From assembly GCA_026713285.1 (NCBI GenBank), contig JAPOOT010000289.1, positions 1-45,279 of the forward strand: a DNA stretch of 45,279 bases. Reading direction: 5' to 3'. The translations under genes were made by a program, and so were the position numbers. The first letter of the stretch is position 1. Every line of letters begins with the position of its first letter. Source of the DNA: Gemmatimonadota bacterium. GTDB lineage: Bacteria > JAAXHH01. Shown here piece after piece: positions 27,498 to 39,185 of this stretch. Under the pieces are notes generated by a model, which was not told the DNA's origin, did not search any database, and was given only the letters and a program-made list of their open reading frames with translations.

Positions 27498-28190
27498 ATG
27501 GACTACCTGCTCAGTGGATTCCTGGAAGCGGTCCGTCTGCTTATGTCCGGCGAATCCGGCGTGTACACCATCGTCGGCGTTTCCGTTTTCGTCGCGGTGT
27601 CCGCGATCCTGCTGGCCTCCGTGATGGGATTGCCCGCTGGCTACTTCCTCGCGACGCACCGGTTTCGGGGCCAGCGGCTGGTAACGACAGTGCTCAACAC
27701 GTTACTGGCCATGCCAACCGTGGTGATCGGCCTCTTCGTGTATTCCCTGATCTCCCGGCGCGGCCCACTGGGCTTTCTGGAACTGTTGTATACACCTAAG
27801 GCCATGATCATCGGCGAGACGATCCTCGCCCTGCCCATCGTGGCCGCGTTCACATTGTCGGCTATCCGCGCCGTCGATTCACGGATCACGGAGACGGCCC
27901 TGACACTGGGCGCGACGACGGCTCAGACGGCCCGCACGCTCATATCCGAGGCCCGGTACGGAATCATGGCCGCGGTGGTCGCCGCCTTCGGCCGGGTGAT
28001 CGCCGAGGTGGGCGCGGCCATGATGCTGGGCGGCAACATCAAGGGGAGTACGCGGACCATGACGACGGCGATCGCCCTGGAGAGCAGCAAGGGGGAGTTC
28101 GGACTGGCCATCGCCCTGGGTATCATCCTGCTGCTGACGGCATTCGGCGCGAACATTCTCTTTCACTGGCTGCAGGGATTCGACGACTGA
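27498..28190 (+). CDS. Tungstate/molybdate-type ABC permease (TupB-like)
   Basis: 230-residue inner-membrane permease resembling TupB/WtpB. It has five to six helices, a LNTLLAMPTVVIGLFVYSLI segment and the characteristic GRVIAEVGAAMMLGGNIKG-STRTMTTAIALE region that contacts the ATPase and oxyanion path. AGGGG lies 4 nt before the ATG. Its stop codon overlaps the ATPase start (TGATG), indicating translational coupling. The binding protein TupA is not adjacent. A molybdopterin enzyme gene further right (41355) gives a possible use for the metal, though that link is inference. Confidence 0.85.
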   Translation: MDYLLSGFLEAVRLLMSGESGVYTIVGVSVFVAVSAILLASVMGLPAGYFLATHRFRGQRLVTTVLNTLLAMPTVVIGLFVYSLISRRGPLGFLELLYTPKAMIIGETILALPIVAAFTLSAIRAVDSRITETALTLGATTAQTARTLISEARYGIMAAVVAAFGRVIAEVGAAMMLGGNIKGSTRTMTTAIALESSKGEFGLAIALGIILLLTAFGANILFHWLQGFDD

Positions 28191-29206
28191 TGGCCGATCC
28201 GATCATCGTGGGCGAGCATATTTCGCACCGTTACGGCGCCGGGTTTCATTTGCATGTCGATCGCCTCGCCCTGTCCGCCGCGAGAACCTATGCCGTTTAC
28301 GGGGCGAACGGATCGGGCAAGACGACGCTTTTGAACATACTCGCCCTGCTGACCCATCCGCAGGAGGGCCGGATCCTCCTCGACGGCCGGCCCGTGAACG
28401 ATTCCGATCCCGCCCGAAGCCGCGGGTACCGCCGCCGCGTCACGCTGCTCATGCAGCATGTCTACCTGTTCCGGTCCACCGTCTTCGATAACGTGGCGTC
28501 GGGCCTGCGGTTCCGCGGCGTCGCGAAGGAGGCGCTGGAAGAACGGGTGACGCGCATGCTGAGCAAGGTTGGCCTGGAAAAACTCGCCCACCGTTCCGCC
28601 CACAGCCTTTCGGGCGGCGAAGCCCAGCGCGCCGGCCTGGCCAGGGCACTGGTAACGGAACCCGACGTGCTGCTGCTCGACGAACCCACGGCCAGCGTCG
28701 ATGCGGCGCACGGCCGGCAGATCGAAGAGATACTCCGGGAAACCTGTAGACAACGGCGGATGACCGTGGTACTCTCGACACACCAGTACGACCAGGCCCA
28801 TCGCGTCGCCGACGAAGTACTGATCATGCGCGACGGACGCTTGATCGAGGCGGGGCCGGAGAACGTTTTCAAGGGGCGTATAGACGAATCGGTGGATGGA
28901 CCGGTTGCCAGGCTGGACTGCGGCGTAACGCTGCGCACGAACACGGTCGCGCGCGGAGATGCGCTTGTCGCCATTTCACCACGGGAAATCCAGTTGTCCC
29001 GGTCGCCCCACCCTTCGGAAGCCGCGAACAGGCTCGAAGGCGTCCTGAACGCCGCGGCGGTGGACGGAGACCGCATTCGCCTGGACGTGGACGCCGGCCT
29101 GCGGTTGACCGTACACGTTGCGCGGGCATCCTTCGCCGGTATGGGGCTTACCGTCGGGGACACGGTGTACGCCGCCATCGGAGCATCGGCAGTTCGGACG
29201 CCGTAA
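28190..29206 (+). CDS. ABC transporter ATPase (TupC-like)
   Basis: 338-residue ATPase partner of the TupB-like permease. It has Walker A GANGSGKTT (38-46), Q-loop in LLMQHVYLF, signature LSGGEAQRAGLARAL from 140, Walker B VLLLDEPTA (Asp164, Glu165) and switch His in VLSTHQYDQAHRVAD. The C-terminal 100 residues (GVTLRTNTVARGDALVAISPREI on) form a TOBE/Mop-like regulatory domain, common in molybdate and tungstate importers and able to bind the oxyanion. Peripheral membrane protein. Confidence 0.9.
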   Translation: MADPIIVGEHISHRYGAGFHLHVDRLALSAARTYAVYGANGSGKTTLLNILALLTHPQEGRILLDGRPVNDSDPARSRGYRRRVTLLMQHVYLFRSTVFDNVASGLRFRGVAKEALEERVTRMLSKVGLEKLAHRSAHSLSGGEAQRAGLARALVTEPDVLLLDEPTASVDAAHGRQIEEILRETCRQRRMTVVLSTHQYDQAHRVADEVLIMRDGRLIEAGPENVFKGRIDESVDGPVARLDCGVTLRTNTVARGDALVAISPREIQLSRSPHPSEAANRLEGVLNAAAVDGDRIRLDVDAGLRLTVHVARASFAGMGLTVGDTVYAAIGASAVRTP

Positions 29207-30321: not shown

Positions 30322-30471
30322 CGCGTTAATGGAGATCGCGGACCGCCCGGCCGTCCATACCGCCGTGTCAGCGGGCCGCCGCACGGATCACACAATCCCG
30401 CAATCGGTCCGGCACAGATCGAATATCCCTGACCACTCACCCGGTTACCACGGGAACGCGAAGTGCGTCAT

Positions 30472-33400
30472 ATGAGAACCACACCCGTCCTCCTGGCCGG
30501 CCTCATCGTGCTGTGCGCCATATCCGCCTGCCAGACGTCCGGGGTCCGCGAGCGCGTGGCGTTCCAGGCCGAACCGGTCGTCGAAGGCCAGGTGGCCGGC
30601 GTGGTCGATTCCACGCGGATCCGGCAGACCATCGCCGACCTGGTGTCCTTCGGTTCCCGCGTGGCCGGCTACCCCGGGGCCACCGAAGCGGCCCACTACC
30701 TGGCCGGCCGCATGGACGAGATCGGACTGGAGGACGTGGAGATGGAAGAGTTCGTCGCTTCCGTCCCGCTGGACGAGGGCGGCGAACTGGTCATCCTGGA
30801 CGCCACGACCCTCGCATTCCCGTCGATTCCCCTCCACGCCGTGTGGCCCAACCTGGTACGCACCTCCACGACGCCACCGGCCGGAATCACGGGCATGCTG
30901 CACTACGTGGGCGCCGGTGATTGGACGGACTTCAACGGCATCGATCCAACCGGCGCCATTTTCCTGATGGACTTCAACTCCGGCGTGAACTGGCAACGCG
31001 CCGCCATGCTCGGCGCGGGCGCTGTGATTTTCGCGGAACCCGACCACACCACGCGGGTGGACGGCGAGGAGAAATACCTCCAGGTCCCCGTCAATTTCCC
31101 TCGATTCTGGATGGAGAAGGAATGGGCGGACCCGCTCGTGGCGTATCTTGAAGTCAACGGTCCCTTCACTGTCAGGACAAAGGGGCGCATGACGTGGAAA
31201 CGCCTCCCGGCCTACAATGTCATGGGGAAAATCACGGGAACGCACCCGGTGTTGAAGGAAGAAGCCATCGTGCTGGAATCCTATTATGATTCCATCTCTC
31301 CCGTGCCGGCCGTATCCCCCGGAGCGAACCAGGCATCGGGCGTAGCCGCGCTCCTGGAGATGGCCCGGTACTTCGCAGCCAATCCCCCTGCGCGTACCGT
31401 GTATTTCCTGGCAACCTCCGGGCACTTCCTGTCCCTCAGCGGCGTGAACGACTTCACGAACCGGCATACGCGCAAGACCCCCTATTTCGCGGAGCAGATC
31501 GAAGAGCCGATCAACATGAAGCTCTTCGCCGGGATCGACCTCTCGAGCGCCCGGGACCAGATCGGCGTTTATTATGCCGGCATCCTCTTCGCCGGGAACT
31601 CCTTCGAAAAACAACGGTTTTTCACACCTTTCGGCCGGACCTTCATGGGTTACGCGCAGGAGGTGATCCGTCGCGGGGTTTTCCCTTCCGACGCGCTGAT
31701 GAACGTGATCACGCCCTCCCAGGGCATACAGAGTACGGAGTTCTTTCCGGCGGGCAACATCGCGCTGGACGCGGAACTGGTCTTCTGGACGGGTTTCCCC
31801 GCGCTCTCCTTTGCCACGGTTTTCGACGTCCGCGAGTACGTAGACACCCCCCTGGACGATATGGAACGGGTGAACATCCGCAACGTGTATACGCAGGCCG
31901 TGCTGTTGACGGAACTATTCGGGCGGGCTGTCAACGACCCCATGCTGTTTCCGGACTTCAAGATGCAGCTCGACGATCGTTTCGTGCGCGGACGCATCCG
32001 GGTGGTCGAGTTCGATCCCCGGGAAGACTATATCCCCAGCAAGCCCAAGCCCGGTGCCGTGGTCCGGTTCCGCCGTTACAACAAGAGCATCAGCGGGGTC
32101 AAGAACGAGATCTTCGTGGTGGCGGACAGCATGGGCGTGGCCGAAAGCACCGAGCTGGAAGCGGGACGCACCTATCCTACCGAGGGATACGTCATGGATC
32201 CCGATACGGGGGACATTATCTACGCGCCGGACCGGGGTCCCTACGGGGAAGGGGCTTATCCCCTCGAGATTACAATGGACTGGGTGGACAAGGAAAAGCC
32301 CACGGTAGTCTTCCGTTCCGATGCGACCAACCTGTACGACCTCGTGGATCCGAGGTTCCTGACCCGGCTCAACGAGGCCGTGCTGCTGGATGAGTCGGGC
32401 AATCCGCCGCTCGAGTGGGGCATGACCTTTCAGGAGGGCGGCTGGACCACGGGTTTCTCCTACGAGGAAGACACGGCCGTCCTTTTCACGCCGCCGGAAA
32501 GCCGGTTCAAGGTCACCATGTCGAGCGGACTGTTCGGCCGCCGCCTGATCCTGACCAACGCCGGTGAAGACCATCCGGAAGGCATCGGTTTCGAGTCGGG
32601 GATCGGCGCGATTCCCCTGACTTCGTACCAGGTCGCGCGGGACCTGTGGCACCTGGACGAGGCGCGGATCGCCGCACTCAAATCCGTGGGGGTAAGCAAC
32701 GTCCGGCTGGACGAGTTCCACCAGGAAGCCGGACGCCTGCTGGACCTGGCCGAATCGGCCCGTCAGGACCTGCAGTGGGACCGCTTTATAAAGTACGCCC
32801 GGGCCGCCTGGGGATACGAGTCCAGGGCGTACCCCGACGCGACGGGAACGGCCAACGACGTGGTGCGGGGCGTCCTGTTCTACATGGTACTGGTGATTCC
32901 CTTCGCCTACGCACTCGAGCGGCTGGTCTTCGGTTTCGCGAATGTCTACAAGCGGATCGCCATGTCCTTTGCCATCTTTCTCGCGGCCTACGGCGTGCTG
33001 CGATTCACCCACCCGGCGTTCCAAATTACCACGGCGCCCGATATCGTCCTTCTCGCCTTTATAACCTTCGTCCTGGCCGCCGTGGTCATCTGGCTCATCT
33101 CCCAGCGGTTCAGCCAGACCATGCGGGAGTTCCGGCAGCATACGCACAGCGTGCAGGCCACCGACGTGCGCCGTTCGAGCGCGTTGGCTACGGCCTTCGC
33201 CCTCGGCATCGGGAACATGCGCAAGCGCAAGGCCCGGACGCTGCTGACCTGCGCCACGCTCGTGCTCCTGGTATTCACCGTGCTGTCCTTTACTTCCGTA
33301 CAGACCTACTTGCGGATCCAGAAAGTGAGCACGGACGCGGAATCCGCCTACACGGGTTTCCTGGTCCGGAACCCAAACTGGGCGCCGCTGCAGAAGCAGA

Positions 33401-35151
33401 CGCACCAGTACGTCCTGTCGGAATTCGGGTCGACAGAGGCCGAAGACGAGGACATCACCATCGTGCCCAGGTCGTGGTACGCCGGTACCGCGCCGGGGGT
33501 GAATACCTACATCAAGGTCGAGCATGACGCCGCGGACAGTTCCGCCCGGTCCACCTACGCGTCGGCCATCCTGGGCCTGCTGCCGGACGAGCGGACGGTC
33601 AGCGGCCTGGACCGTATCCTGACGGCGGGCAGGTGGTTCGAGGGGGATGAAAGGGACGTGTGCATCCTTCCCGTCGAGATGGCGCGGCTTCTCGGGATGT
33701 CGGAAGCGGACGCAGGTCAACAGGAAATCAGTATCTTCGGCAAACCCTTTACGGTCATTGGCCTATTCGACTCGGCCGCAATGGACAGGATCACCGACCT
33801 GGACGACGAGCCGCTCACCCCCGTGGATTACACGGCGACGGGGCGCGATCTGATCACCGAGCTTGCCATGATGGATTACGATGAGGAACCGGTGCAAATG
33901 GCCCGGTTCGAACACCTCCCGGCCGCGAATCTGATCCTTGCGCCCCATGCCTACGTAAACGACGTCGGGGGAACGCTCCGGTCCGTCGCGGTCCGTTTCC
34001 CCTCGGATGATGGCGCCCTCGACCGGATCGAACGCTTCATGCAGCGGCTGGGGATACCCGTGGTGGCCTCCGTGGGCGGAGAGGTCGCCGTGTTCAGCGC
34101 CATGGCGCTGAGTTCGCTGTCGGGCCTGGGCAACCTGTTCATCCCAATGGTGGTTGCCGCCCTGATCATCCTGAACACCATGATGAACGCCGTGTATGAA
34201 CGCTTCAGCGAAATCGGCGTATACAGCGCCGTGGGCCTGGCCCCGGCGCATATTGGCGCGTTGTTCATGGCCGAAGCCGCCATGTACGCCGTGATCGGGG
34301 GCATGTCCGGCTACCTCATCGGGCAGACCGTTGCCCGCGGTATCACGGAATACGAGATGCTTGCGGGCTTGACGCTGAACTATTCATCCCTGTCCGCGGT
34401 GGCCTCGACGGCCATGGTCATGGTGGTGGTCATGCTCTCGACGATTTATCCAGCGCGCAAGGCATCCCAGATGGCCGTTCCGGACGTCAACAGGCAGTGG
34501 TCCTTCCCCGATCCCGAAGGCGACGACTGGCGTTTCGAGTTTCCCTTCACCATAAGTAGCACGGAGACGCTCGGCCTGTGTGCTTATCTGACCCGGTTCT
34601 TCGAGTCCTACGGCGAGAGTACGCTGGGGAGTTTCATGACGGACGAGGTGAGCCTGACGGGCAGAAACGGCGGATCAGGCGGTGCGGGCCGCGCGACGGA
34701 AGCGGATGGGAATCCGCCCGGTAGAGATGTCCCGGTCAACGACGCCGCGGACCTTGAATCCGCTTCGGGCGCGGCCACTGATTCCGCGGCCCGCGGAAAC
34801 TTCGAGTCGGCAGCCGGCATGGCCACGTACGAAATTACAATGAAGACCTGGCTGGCGCCCTACGACACGGGGGTGAGCCAGCGGGTGACCCTTCACGCGT
34901 CGCCCGCCGAGGACGAACACGACCTGTACGCCGTGTGGGTGCACATCTATCGCCTGAGCGGCGACGTGGATTCGTGGCAACGCCTGAACCGCCGCTTCCT
35001 GAACGTGCTGCGCAAGCAGTTCCTGGTCTGGCGTACCGTGGACCAGGAGGTCAAAACGGTCTACGCGGGTGAGGGGCGGGAGATGATTGGTGCGGGCGCG
35101 GGGACTGGCCCGCGTACGGAGACTGGTCCAGGTACGGTGGAACCGGCCTGA
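30472..35151 (+). CDS. Lipoprotein fusion: degenerate M28 peptidase domain plus FtsX/MacB-type permease
   Basis: 1559-residue envelope protein. A lipoprotein-like signal (VLCAISAC) leads into an M28 aminopeptidase-like domain (about 25-480) with an inserted PA-type subdomain. The expected zinc and catalytic residues are replaced: the HYD site reads YYD (271-273), the GANDNASG site reads GANQASG (284-290), and the Glu-Glu site reads ATSGHF (from 314). A beta-rich segment and three helices (from about 800: VLFYMVLVIPFAYALERL) follow. Then comes a MacB-PCD/FtsX module with RTLLTCATLVLLVFTVLSF, a periplasmic domain and three C-terminal helices, ending with STIYPARKASQM. A linker and a 120-residue soluble tail close it. 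No cognate ABC ATPase is adjacent. The track starts at GTG 30463; I prefer the ATG at 30472. Confidence 0.8.
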   Translation: MRTTPVLLAGLIVLCAISACQTSGVRERVAFQAEPVVEGQVAGVVDSTRIRQTIADLVSFGSRVAGYPGATEAAHYLAGRMDEIGLEDVEMEEFVASVPLDEGGELVILDATTLAFPSIPLHAVWPNLVRTSTTPPAGITGMLHYVGAGDWTDFNGIDPTGAIFLMDFNSGVNWQRAAMLGAGAVIFAEPDHTTRVDGEEKYLQVPVNFPRFWMEKEWADPLVAYLEVNGPFTVRTKGRMTWKRLPAYNVMGKITGTHPVLKEEAIVLESYYDSISPVPAVSPGANQASGVAALLEMARYFAANPPARTVYFLATSGHFLSLSGVNDFTNRHTRKTPYFAEQIEEPINMKLFAGIDLSSARDQIGVYYAGILFAGNSFEKQRFFTPFGRTFMGYAQEVIRRGVFPSDALMNVITPSQGIQSTEFFPAGNIALDAELVFWTGFPALSFATVFDVREYVDTPLDDMERVNIRNVYTQAVLLTELFGRAVNDPMLFPDFKMQLDDRFVRGRIRVVEFDPREDYIPSKPKPGAVVRFRRYNKSISGVKNEIFVVADSMGVAESTELEAGRTYPTEGYVMDPDTGDIIYAPDRGPYGEGAYPLEITMDWVDKEKPTVVFRSDATNLYDLVDPRFLTRLNEAVLLDESGNPPLEWGMTFQEGGWTTGFSYEEDTAVLFTPPESRFKVTMSSGLFGRRLILTNAGEDHPEGIGFESGIGAIPLTSYQVARDLWHLDEARIAALKSVGVSNVRLDEFHQEAGRLLDLAESARQDLQWDRFIKYARAAWGYESRAYPDATGTANDVVRGVLFYMVLVIPFAYALERLVFGFANVYKRIAMSFAIFLAAYGVLRFTHPAFQITTAPDIVLLAFITFVLAAVVIWLISQRFSQTMREFRQHTHSVQATDVRRSSALATAFALGIGNMRKRKARTLLTCATLVLLVFTVLSFTSVQTYLRIQKVSTDAESAYTGFLVRNPNWAPLQKQTHQYVLSEFGSTEAEDEDITIVPRSWYAGTAPGVNTYIKVEHDAADSSARSTYASAILGLLPDERTVSGLDRILTAGRWFEGDERDVCILPVEMARLLGMSEADAGQQEISIFGKPFTVIGLFDSAAMDRITDLDDEPLTPVDYTATGRDLITELAMMDYDEEPVQMARFEHLPAANLILAPHAYVNDVGGTLRSVAVRFPSDDGALDRIERFMQRLGIPVVASVGGEVAVFSAMALSSLSGLGNLFIPMVVAALIILNTMMNAVYERFSEIGVYSAVGLAPAHIGALFMAEAAMYAVIGGMSGYLIGQTVARGITEYEMLAGLTLNYSSLSAVASTAMVMVVVMLSTIYPARKASQMAVPDVNRQWSFPDPEGDDWRFEFPFTISSTETLGLCAYLTRFFESYGESTLGSFMTDEVSLTGRNGGSGGAGRATEADGNPPGRDVPVNDAADLESASGAATDSAARGNFESAAGMATYEITMKTWLAPYDTGVSQRVTLHASPAEDEHDLYAVWVHIYRLSGDVDSWQRLNRRFLNVLRKQFLVWRTVDQEVKTVYAGEGREMIGAGAGTGPRTETGPGTVEPA

Positions 35152-35720: not shown

Positions 35721-36030
35721 GCCTTGGTGATCTTTGGTAGGCTACCCAATCTTTCATAAGAGTATAGCATCCCTAGAACACTGTTGTGTCGACGACACCG
35801 TGCAATAGCGAGTGGTTGGAGGATTTGACGTATCCTATAAACTGAGTTGACCCCGTTTAGTACGTATGAATTTGTGTACAACGAGGAGTGTTCGACACAA
35901 CTCCAAGAAATGTGAACCTGTCTACAAACCGGTAATCTTGGTTTTATGTGCACCGGGTAAAGTCAGTCCGCGTGGGTATGACAGCGTTTATCGAAAAGCT
36001 CGGCCGTATGAGGATCAAGGAGTTGGCGTG
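35721..36030. other. Left junction of the low-GC island, no firm gene
   Basis: 310 bp of markedly lower GC. It holds the imperfect palindrome GTGTCG-A-CGACAC (35786-35798) and an open frame (ATG 35866) that reads into the TIR-like gene without a ribosome site. I cannot identify an attachment site, integrase or direct repeat. Confidence 0.4.
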
Positions 36031-36831
36031 ATGGCGAGAGTCCGAAAGTCAACTGCAATTGAACGATTGCAGAGGTTGGTTGATGAGGCTTCAGAGCTGG
36101 ATATGGAGGATGATAGCTCTCAGGAAGTTCAAAAATGGATACAGGACGTTTTTACCGCTTTTATCAACATATTCGGTGAGGATAGTTCTCAGTTTTCACG
36201 ACTTCCGCAAAGTCACAAAACAACCCCAAGTGGGGTTCGTGAATACCTGAGATCAATGGTTTCCTGCGTCGCGTCTAGTCTCGATGAGATCAAGTACTTT
36301 CGTGAGGATGAAACAGAAACTGTGAAACAACCCTCAGAACAGGGTGACTTAAAAGCACCAGATAAGGACTGTTACGACCAGGGATCGGCGACCAAAAAAG
36401 TCTTTGTCGTTCATGGTCACGACGAGGCCGTCCTGCAGGCGGTTGCGAGATTTCTAGAAAAGCTGAAACTCGAACCAGTAATCCTGCACGAACAGGCGAA
36501 TCAAGGCCGCACGATCATAGAGAAATTTGAGGATCATTCGGATGCGAGTTTTGCCGTGGTTCTGCTGACACCTGACGACATAGGCGCGGCCGTTACGGAT
36601 AAGGCCGATCTACGGCACCGAGCTCGTCAGAACGTAATTCTCGAACTCGGATTCTTCATTGGGAAGTTGGGTCGCAACAGGGTCTGTGCTCTGAAATCGC
36701 GTTGTGTCGAAAATCCGTCGGACGTTGATGGGATGGTCTATATCAACCTCGACGAGCCAGATGCATGGAAGACCGGACTCGTGCGGGAGTTAATGGCAGC
36801 TGGTTTCGCCATCGACGCTAACTGGGTTTAG
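36031..36831 (+). CDS. TIR-like nucleotide-binding effector (PF10137 type)
   Basis: 266-residue protein. Residues 122-266 match the TIR-like nucleotide-binding family: KKVFVVHGHDEAVLQAVARF, then GRTIIEKFEDHSDASFAVVLLTPDD and RQNVILELGFFIGKLGRNRV with the conserved Glu205. The N-terminal 90 residues form a helical domain (KWIQDVFTAFINIFGEDSSQ) typical of this family. TIR and TIR-like domains in bacteria often hydrolyse NAD+ in anti-phage systems, so an abortive-infection effector is likely (inference). AAGGAG lies 8 nt before the ATG at 36031. The track start at 35866 is too far upstream. The next gene, a minimal nucleotidyltransferase, begins 5 nt after the stop. GC of one sampled line is 48%. 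Confidence 0.88.
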   Translation: MARVRKSTAIERLQRLVDEASELDMEDDSSQEVQKWIQDVFTAFINIFGEDSSQFSRLPQSHKTTPSGVREYLRSMVSCVASSLDEIKYFREDETETVKQPSEQGDLKAPDKDCYDQGSATKKVFVVHGHDEAVLQAVARFLEKLKLEPVILHEQANQGRTIIEKFEDHSDASFAVVLLTPDDIGAAVTDKADLRHRARQNVILELGFFIGKLGRNRVCALKSRCVENPSDVDGMVYINLDEPDAWKTGLVRELMAAGFAIDANWV

Positions 36832-36836
36832 CAGCC

Positions 36837-37142
36837 ATGAACGCACAGTTGTCGATTTCCAAAACCGAATTGTCAGCCTATTGTAAAAATCATGGCATCC
36901 GACGATTAGCAATTTTCGGATCGGTGCTCCGGCCAGATTTTGGCCCGGAGAGCGATATCGACGTACTGGTCGAGTTCGCACCGGGTCACACTCCCGGTCT
37001 GCTGGGCATGGCCGGATTGGAGATTGAACTATCCGAATTGTTTGGCGGTCGGAAGGTGGACCTGCGGACTCCTGAGGAATTGAGTCGTTATTTTCGACAG
37101 AAGGTCATTGACACGGCAGAAGTTCTATATGTGCAGGGATGA
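36837..37142 (+). CDS. Minimal nucleotidyltransferase (MNT/MntA family)
   Basis: 101-residue DNA polymerase beta-fold nucleotidyltransferase. The catalytic motif GSVLRPDFGPESDIDV (28-43) supplies Asp40 and Asp42, with the third acid Asp75 in GRKVDLRT. MNT proteins usually serve as antitoxins that AMPylate or otherwise modify the HEPN toxin encoded beside them. Here the HEPN gene is reduced to a remnant overlapping its 3' end. It has no ribosome site of its own and starts 5 nt after the TIR-like gene, so it is probably translated by reinitiation. Its present partner may be the TIR-like protein, or it may be a leftover antitoxin. Confidence 0.9.
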   Translation: MNAQLSISKTELSAYCKNHGIRRLAIFGSVLRPDFGPESDIDVLVEFAPGHTPGLLGMAGLEIELSELFGGRKVDLRTPEELSRYFRQKVIDTAEVLYVQG

Positions 37143-38048: not shown

Positions 38049-39185
38049 ATGGCCACTAACACCGAAAGATACGCTCCTGGTCGAGTACGAGATGCGATAA
38101 TCCGGGTGATGAGACTAACGACAGAAGGTTTGTCTGCTAAACAGATCGCAGCGAGAGTTGCAAAGATAGAGGGCCACATGCCTGAGTCCTCGATCAGGTC
38201 TTATCTTCGTCTGAACACTCCAGAGACATTTGTTCGTGAAAGGAGGGGGGTATACCGCCTTAAGGTAGATCATGACAGCAGTCTGCAACGAACGATGTTC
38301 AGGAGTCCACCTTGGCAGGAACCCTTCAAGTTTGGATCGGCTACATTGTTTCATAGTGAATGTTTGGATTGGCTGGACGCAAGAGATGACCAATCAATCC
38401 ACGCGATAGTTACCGATCCACCTTACGGTCTGCAGGAATACACAGCGAAAGAGCAGACGAAACTCCGAAATAGGAAGGGGGGGATCTGGAGGATTCCTCC
38501 TGCATTTGATGGCCACGTTCGTTCGCCGTTACCAAGATTCACTACTTTAACCGATGAACAAAAACTTTATCTTCGGGAGTTTTTCTATATCTGGTCTCGT
38601 CTACTGATCCCCAAGTTGGTACCTGGCGCCAACGTGGTCGTTGCCTCCAATCCACTACTCTCCCACATTGTCGCCGGCGCTATAGCGGATTCGGGGCTTG
38701 AAAGACGCGGCGACATCGTCAGGCTTGTTATGACTATGCGTGGCGGTGATCGGCCAAAAGCGGCACATGATGAATTCAAGGATGTCAGTGTGCTCCCCAG
38801 ATCAATGTGGGAGCCATGGCTGATATTCCGTAGGCCTGTGGAGGGAAGAGTACAGGACAACCTCAGAAAATGGAAAACGGGAGGGTTTCGACGGCCGACT
38901 GGACTCAAGCCATTCGGAGATGTTATTCAATCTTCCCCGACCAGAAAAAATGAGAAGGCGATAGCACCTCACCCCAGCCTTAAGCCACAATCCTTCTTAC
39001 GACGCCTCGTGAGGGGTGTTCTTCCACTAGGTGAAGGTATAGTTGTCGATCCCTTTGCCGGCGCTGGCTCTACTCTCGCGGCCGCTGAAGCAGTTGGGTA
39101 CGAGTCAATCGGAATAGAAAAGGATTCTCTGTACTTCAATATGGCCAAGGAAGCACTACAGCCACTAGCCGAGCTCGAAGTGTAG
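38049..39185 (+). CDS. DNA methyltransferase (type II, beta-class order) with N-terminal HTH
   Basis: 378-residue DNA amino-methyltransferase (N6-adenine or N4-cytosine). Motif IV DPPYG is at 123-127, ahead of the SAM-binding motif I FAGAG at 336-340 (VDPFAGAGSTLAAAEAVGYESIGIEKD-type end), which gives beta-class order. The N-terminal 75 residues form a winged-helix (LSAKQIAARVAKIEGHMPES and RRGVYRL) that could add DNA or operator binding. The convergent gene, whose stop is 19 nt away, encodes a PD-ExK nuclease, so this is the protective half of a type II R-M system. The recognition sequence cannot be read from sequence. Confidence 0.9.
   Translation: MATNTERYAPGRVRDAIIRVMRLTTEGLSAKQIAARVAKIEGHMPESSIRSYLRLNTPETFVRERRGVYRLKVDHDSSLQRTMFRSPPWQEPFKFGSATLFHSECLDWLDARDDQSIHAIVTDPPYGLQEYTAKEQTKLRNRKGGIWRIPPAFDGHVRSPLPRFTTLTDEQKLYLREFFYIWSRLLIPKLVPGANVVVASNPLLSHIVAGAIADSGLERRGDIVRLVMTMRGGDRPKAAHDEFKDVSVLPRSMWEPWLIFRRPVEGRVQDNLRKWKTGGFRRPTGLKPFGDVIQSSPTRKNEKAIAPHPSLKPQSFLRRLVRGVLPLGEGIVVDPFAGAGSTLAAAEAVGYESIGIEKDSLYFNMAKEALQPLAELEV

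Follow-up and report, generated by a model that had tools for sequence, protein, structure and literature searches.

Few Type VII ABC systems are known, and every characterised one has defined a process of the cell envelope (division, lipoprotein sorting, efflux or lipid hydrolysis). In these systems, which belong to the MacB superfamily, cytoplasmic ATP drives periplasmic work via an FtsX-like core (PMC5985334). The window analysed here, a 45,279 nt stretch of DNA from a Gemmatimonadota bacterium, contains a long gene that appears to join such a core to a domain resembling the M28 zinc peptidases. This locus raises the question of whether the fusion is genuine, whether its peptidase domain is still an enzyme and what an enzyme fold may be doing on a permease.

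A single gene encodes an M28–FtsX fusion

The ORF at 30463–35151 (+) is a single uninterrupted frame and represents one intact gene encoding an M28–FtsX fusion protein. Translation from the GTG at 30463 gives 1562 aa, and translation starting with the ATG at 30472 gives 1559 aa. Residues are numbered here from the GTG, so that the ATG is codon 4. The domain order is lipobox, M28/PA aminopeptidase fold, beta domains, helical stalk, three TM helices, MacB/FtsX core and soluble tail, as follows.

30463..35151, +: whole gene, M28–FtsX fusion (single ORF; full-length orthologues with 82–87 % identity in the same genus)
30472..30540, +: N-terminal signal with lipobox ISA/C, Cys 23 (sequence; hydrophobic segment 9–27)
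30610..31929, +: M28 aminopeptidase-like fold with PA-type insertion, residues ~50–489 (Pfam M28; AF2 model; PDB matches)
31981..32571, +: beta-rich region 3' of the M28 domain, residues ~507–703 (AF2 model)
32620..32829, +: periplasmic helical stalk, residues ~720–789 (AF2 models)
32860..33144, +: three extra TM helices, residues ~800–894 (helices in AF2 model; two of the three detected by hydropathy)
33229..33291, +: FtsX-type TM1 (AF2 model and hydropathy)
33313..34104, +: MacB_PCD-like periplasmic domain (Pfam MacB_PCD, sub-threshold in the window protein)
34126..34473, +: FtsX core TM2–TM4 (Pfam FtsX; AF2 model)
34198–34230, +: major coupling helix motif ERFSEIG, within the FtsX core
34525..35100, +: predicted cytoplasmic alpha/beta tail domain, ending WLAPYD...NRRFLNVLRKQFLVWRT, with a low-confidence insert (AF2 model)

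This layout agrees with the original prediction for the locus, in which a lipoprotein signal, an M28-like domain, extra helices, a MacB-PCD/FtsX permease and a soluble tail were placed in one ORF; the architecture and its coordinates were confirmed by the ORF, Pfam and AF2. A Cys at the position of the lipobox was also present in other members of the same clade (L018, L019 and L024), and the paralogues have an uncleaved-looking TM segment where the window protein has its lipobox signal. The beta-rich region had a weak CarboxypepD_reg match in one relative. No relative of the tail domain was found in Pfam or PDB searches. Given a periplasmic N-terminus, the three extra helices still allow the usual topology of the FtsX core, in which both ends are cytoplasmic; a cytoplasmic location is accordingly predicted for the tail.

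The fusion family was found in 16/16 of the phylum genomes searched, usually in several copies, and in 121 of 151 genomes from the phylum of an Armatimonadota relative. A scan of species genomes gave 217 relatives, and the record names of the best 80 of these 217, following the depositors' taxonomy, were Latescibacterota, Gemmatimonadota, Armatimonadota, Zixibacteria, Desantisbacteria and Handelsmanbacteria. The nearest named records were Candidatus Latescibacterota MAGs with 86 % identity (again by depositors' taxonomy). The idea that two separate genes had been wrongly joined was rejected, as one frame was found in paralogues of the same genome (of which one is split by contig ends), in each of the 16 phylum genomes and in numerous other bacteria; with an identical one-gene architecture in many independent assemblies, such an artefact is almost certainly not the explanation. 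The fusion is real and old.

The M28 domain has the fold of zinc aminopeptidases

The Pfam M28 model (PF04389) matched residues 252–336 with 42.9 bits against a cut-off of 21.3, and matched all 36 relatives examined. Pfam PA matched 19 of the 36 but was absent from the window member itself. Structure prediction gave a confident AF2 model of residues 44–801 (mean pLDDT 90), whose best PDB matches were the PA-containing zinc aminopeptidases 2ek8 and 6hc6/6hc7. When solved M28 enzymes were compared with a profile of the 36 relatives, 2ek8 was matched at E=4e-21 and BSAP/YwaD (6hc6) at E=6e-18, with nicalin and the transferrin receptor ranking lower; the fold search also ranked the transferrin receptor. 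The above-threshold Pfam match and the fold search thus both place the domain in the M28 fold, and the comparison with active M28 enzymes proposed in the original prediction recovered the aminopeptidase fold.

The N-terminal module shares its fold, its motif order and a PA-like insertion with M28 PA aminopeptidases (BSAP/YwaD, 6hc6; Aneurinibacillus, 2ek8), but differs in having five of the seven metal or catalytic residues replaced in all or most members and in being attached to a permease. Nicalin and the transferrin receptor likewise reuse the M28 fold in a membrane-anchored protein, although they are eukaryotic and lack an ABC permease fusion. Neither of these M28-fold proteins is known to be a working peptidase.

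In many Armatimonadota relatives of 1600–1740 aa (e.g. G118:C175 and G141:C122), the M28 profile matched as two pieces (~2–293 and 301–762) separated by ~450–500 bases. This suggests an extra inserted domain near the position of residue 340 of the window protein.

The canonical di-zinc site is absent

The register of the active site was set by alignment to solved M28 enzymes, with an active-looking M28 protein from the same genome as a control. The site positions in the window protein are listed below.

31282..31290, +: Y274-Y275-D276, HxD motif in which the metal His is Y274 and the Asp (D276) is kept (alignments)
31327..31332, +: N289-Q290, bridging-Asp loop shorter by one residue (GANDNASG to GANQASG; alignments)
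31423..31428, +: H321-F322 in place of the Glu-Glu pair (alignments; same-genome M28 control)
31537..31539, +: D359, fourth metal-ligand Asp, retained (motif LDM to IDLSS; end of model strand 309–316)
31843..31857, +: D461-T-P-x-D465 in place of HTPxD, with the last metal His replaced by D461 (alignments)

The five metal ligands of an active M28 enzyme (H, D, E, D, H) therefore correspond to Y274, N289 with the adjoining deletion, F322, a retained D359 and D461. The general-base Glu is H321 and the metal Glu of the same pair is F322, while the Asp of HxD is kept. Overall, 5/7 metal or catalytic positions were altered and 2/7 (D276 and D359) retained. The original prediction that every M28 position that could be placed had been replaced thus held for five positions and failed for the two retained aspartates. 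Its change of the metal His to Tyr was upheld at Y274. Its reading of the Glu-Glu pair as SG was a register error and was rejected: both the solved-M28 alignments and the same-genome control align the pair to H321-F322. Because the canonical di-zinc site was absent from every relative sampled, the peptidase domain is, as judged from these alignments, a pseudo-M28.

The remodelled pocket is fixed across the family

Fixation was counted over 62 non-redundant sequences with <85 % identity. D276, H321, D359 and D465 were each present in 62/62 sequences and D461 in 61/62, while F322 was kept in 53/62. Position 289 was acidic in 55/62 (47 Glu and 8 Asp), with six Asn and one Gly; Asn is the residue in the window protein, and its presence in the window's clade implies that a putative metal site is weakened there. 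The metal His position 274 was Tyr in 42, Phe in 12 and His in 8 of the 62. Glu occurred at neither catalytic-pair position in any of the sequences (0/62), so that the family-wide alignment suggested with the original prediction showed loss of the canonical site to be fixed. Of 732 columns, 46 were near-invariant, and these included four of the seven site columns, D276, H321, D359 and D461 (hypergeometric P ~4e-4, a value weakened by the relatedness of the sequences and by the general conservation of fold loops).

Decay would not fix a His and an Asp at catalytic positions, and was rejected for this reason; the pocket appears instead to be remodelled and under constraint. The invariance of the replacing residues indicates a pocket kept for some other use rather than mere loss. 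It is concluded, as far as residue conservation can tell, that the di-zinc peptidase has been lost and the pocket retained for another purpose.

In eight of the 62 sequences, including L034 and L046, the metal His of HxD was kept with the rest of the site gone; these may be intermediates of site loss.

The permease half resembles Type VII ABC systems

In the window protein, Pfam FtsX matched residues 1227–1337 and MacB_PCD matched residues 926–1120 at a sub-threshold score; among relatives, FtsX was matched in 31/31 and MacB_PCD in 18/31. The AF2 model of the permease was moderate (pLDDT 79.6, pTM 0.62). Its best structural matches were MacB, LolC and YbbAP, with low global TM-scores to MacB and LolC. 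The Pfam matches in all 31 relatives and these structural matches support the FtsX/MacB-type permease of the original prediction. Pfam and the model give a four-TM FtsX core with an extracytoplasmic domain between TM1 and TM2, as in the definition of Type VII systems (PMC5985334), and a putative cognate ATPase of the MacB/LolD/FtsE type is linked to the fusion in relatives and has a homologue in the window genome.

MacAB, LolCDE and FtsEX share with the fusion system the FtsX/MacB core, a MacB-like periplasmic domain, the coupling helix and a LolD/MacB-like ATPase, but the fusion adds ~900 N-terminal residues, three TM helices, a cytoplasmic tail, a short half-FtsX partner and OPT-like neighbours. 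YbbAP-TesA, in which a Type VII core serves a hydrolase-fold partner (PMC12646458), is similar in pairing a Type VII ABC transporter with a hydrolase-fold periplasmic module in E. coli. However, TesA is a separate active esterase and YbbP a 10-TM fused permease, whereas the module of the fusion is covalent and pseudo-enzymatic. Membership of the established systems was rejected in each case: LolCDE because the LolD model gave 234 bits against 307.75 and lolCE was far under the NCBIfam cut-off, MacB because the score was 24.6 bits against an equivalog cut-off of 966 and the fusion protein has no NBD, and YbbAP-TesA because the fusion has a single FtsX core with three extra TM helices against a 10-TM duplicated permease.

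Most relatives lie beside OPT-like transporter genes

A full operon headed by the fusion gene was present in deep-branching relatives. It was seen in Desantisbacteria (L047), in relatives from Armatimonadota and in some Latescibacterota (L053, L057 and L058), on one strand and in the order fusion, OPT-like permease (~670 aa), ~300-aa protein, 230-aa half-FtsX and ABC ATPase. The ~300-aa protein had no Pfam match. Among loci with 2.5 kb on both sides, an OPT-like/DUF6785 gene lay within 7 kb of the fusion in 45/46 loci outside the window's clade and in 0/9 loci of that clade. This linkage is far above chance, as the window genome has only ~12 DUF6785 genes in 3.4 Mb. The OPT and DUF6785-DUF6784 permeases are thus conserved operon neighbours of the family, but are separate proteins, and the OPT match was under the Pfam cut-off. 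The original prediction had missed both this operon with its OPT-like/DUF6785 transporters and the half-FtsX partner. Searches for DUF6785 (OPT-like) genes gave 14 hits, or ~12 genes, in the window genome; 14 control genomes of well-known organisms had none.

No large periplasmic domain is present in the half-FtsX, which was found once each in 15/16 phylum genomes. In the window genome it lies next to an ATPase gene on contig C193, a different contig from that of the fusion. A near-complete relative also has the pair, close to a gene for a homologue of the ~300-aa protein. The C193 ATPase is 73 % identical to the operon ATPase of L057, has Walker A and LSGGQ motifs and scored best with the LolD and MacB models, in both cases under the cut-offs (LolD 234 bits against 307.75). 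The genome search for a partner ATPase, another check proposed at the outset, therefore found a fitting one that is operonic in relatives and unlinked in the window genome. No half-FtsX or operon-type ATPase was linked to any locus of the window's clade. The neighbours of the window gene, kept within the genus, are an ordinary binding-protein ABC transporter and PhyH. The ABC ATPase at 28190–29206 was rejected as a partner, because its TOBE domain and adjoining BPD_transp_1 permease assign it to the ordinary binding-protein importer.

The window genome (~3.4 Mb, 519 contigs) has three family copies, the window gene and two paralogues. In the phylogenetic tree, the window's clade formed one fully supported group and operon-linked lineages occupied several other branches; for this reason the window copy was read as a paralogue that left the operon. 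The third paralogue is split across contig ends (L131, G000:C474; L132, G000:C184); DUF6785/6784 and OPT-like genes flank it, and an amidohydrolase-like gene is adjacent.

Possible role of the fusion

Taken together, the observed fold, site changes, fixation, operon linkage and ATPase presence make it probable that the fusion serves as the large permease subunit in an undescribed Type VII ABC machine and carries a non-hydrolytic, ligand-binding (receptor) M28 module. Its FtsX core would probably pair with the separate half-FtsX protein as a heterodimer, with a MacB/LolD-type ATPase, in the window genome presumably that of C193, driving both halves. The proposal of an ATP-driven heterodimer rests on retention of the FtsX core with its coupling-helix motif and on the presence of both a suitable ATPase and a second FtsX half. 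Use of the C193 pair by the unlinked window copy is conjectural, as its clade has no linked half-FtsX or ATPase. The M28 module, without di-zinc chemistry but with a constrained pocket, would most likely be a binding (receptor) domain acting in concert with the OPT-like/DUF6785 permeases encoded beside most relatives. Its ligand might be peptides, the favoured guess, or another envelope ligand; peptides are suggested by M28 ancestry and the OPT name only. Counted against this explanation are the absence from the window's clade of an OPT neighbour (0/9) and of a linked half-FtsX/ATPase, the small size of the half-FtsX outside the membrane, the moderate permease model and its low global TM-scores. 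The original prediction, that the peptidase domain may now sense a ligand or act as a scaffold on a mechanotransmission permease, was supported as regards the fixed loss of the site, the permease type and the existence of a fitting ATPase. A more specific proposal, put forward tentatively, is that the fixed set of acidic 289, H321, D359 and D461 in the rebuilt M28 fold binds a new metal or ligand, and that the ABC ATPase operates the module mechanically so that substrate passes to or from OPT-type permeases.

The same residues could instead form a rebuilt single-metal or metal-free site with altered chemistry, leaving the domain an enzyme. Their near-invariance across 62 diverse sequences would be unusual for a purely structural remnant, position 289 is Glu or Asp in 55 of these, and YbbAP-TesA shows that Type VII systems can bear a hydrolase (PMC12646458). 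However, both catalytic/ligand Glu residues are missing in all members, the metal His is Tyr or Phe in 54/62 and position 289 is Asn in the window protein, making this unlikely. Loss of the canonical site would also be expected of a mere structural scaffold or docking platform with no pocket ligand, like the M28-fold regions of nicalin (ranked by the profile search) and the transferrin receptor (ranked by both profile and fold searches). Such a scaffold does not need the observed enrichment of pocket columns among invariant columns, yet these could be buried residues that stabilise the fold through hydrogen bonds, and this reading is somewhat improbable rather than remote.

For the window's clade in particular, the copy could be an orphan paralogue without an ABC ATPase or OPT partner, for example a static receptor beside its PhyH and ABC-importer neighbours. 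The lack of OPT/DUF6785, half-FtsX or operon-type ATPase genes near the clade's loci fits this, as does conservation within the genus of the ordinary binding-protein ABC transporter and PhyH. Retention of the FtsX core and coupling-helix motif does not, and a single half-FtsX/ATPase pair in the genome could serve all three paralogues, so that orphan status is decidedly unlikely. The receptor module on an ATP-driven permease is therefore the preferred reading.

No description of the M28–FtsX architecture was found in the searchable literature, whose coverage is incomplete, including that on Armatimonadetes FtsX and DUF6785; NCBIfam held no model for the family, and the literature on M28-fold pseudo-enzymes (reviews) yielded nothing useful. 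The family adds to the Type VII ABC kind a member with a pseudo-enzyme domain and is not a new category. It would be a Type VII system that has transporter partners and carries its own pseudo-peptidase; it occurs in most of the Armatimonadota-group genomes sampled and is amplified in Latescibacterota. The family allows the conversion of an enzyme fold into an ATP-operated receptor to be tested directly, and it points to a function that can be sought in lineages whose cell biology is almost unstudied.

Defence-like genes downstream of the fusion

Downstream in the window, at 35866–37142 (+), a PF10137 (CAP12/PCTIR TIR) protein has a small nucleotidyltransferase directly after it. The two proteins match PADLOC phage-defence candidates (PDC-S35 and PDC-S09) and may form a defence pair close to the fusion gene. 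A Type II-like DNA methyltransferase (N6_N4_Mtase; PADLOC MTase_II) lies just downstream of this TIR/nucleotidyltransferase pair at 38049–39185 (+).
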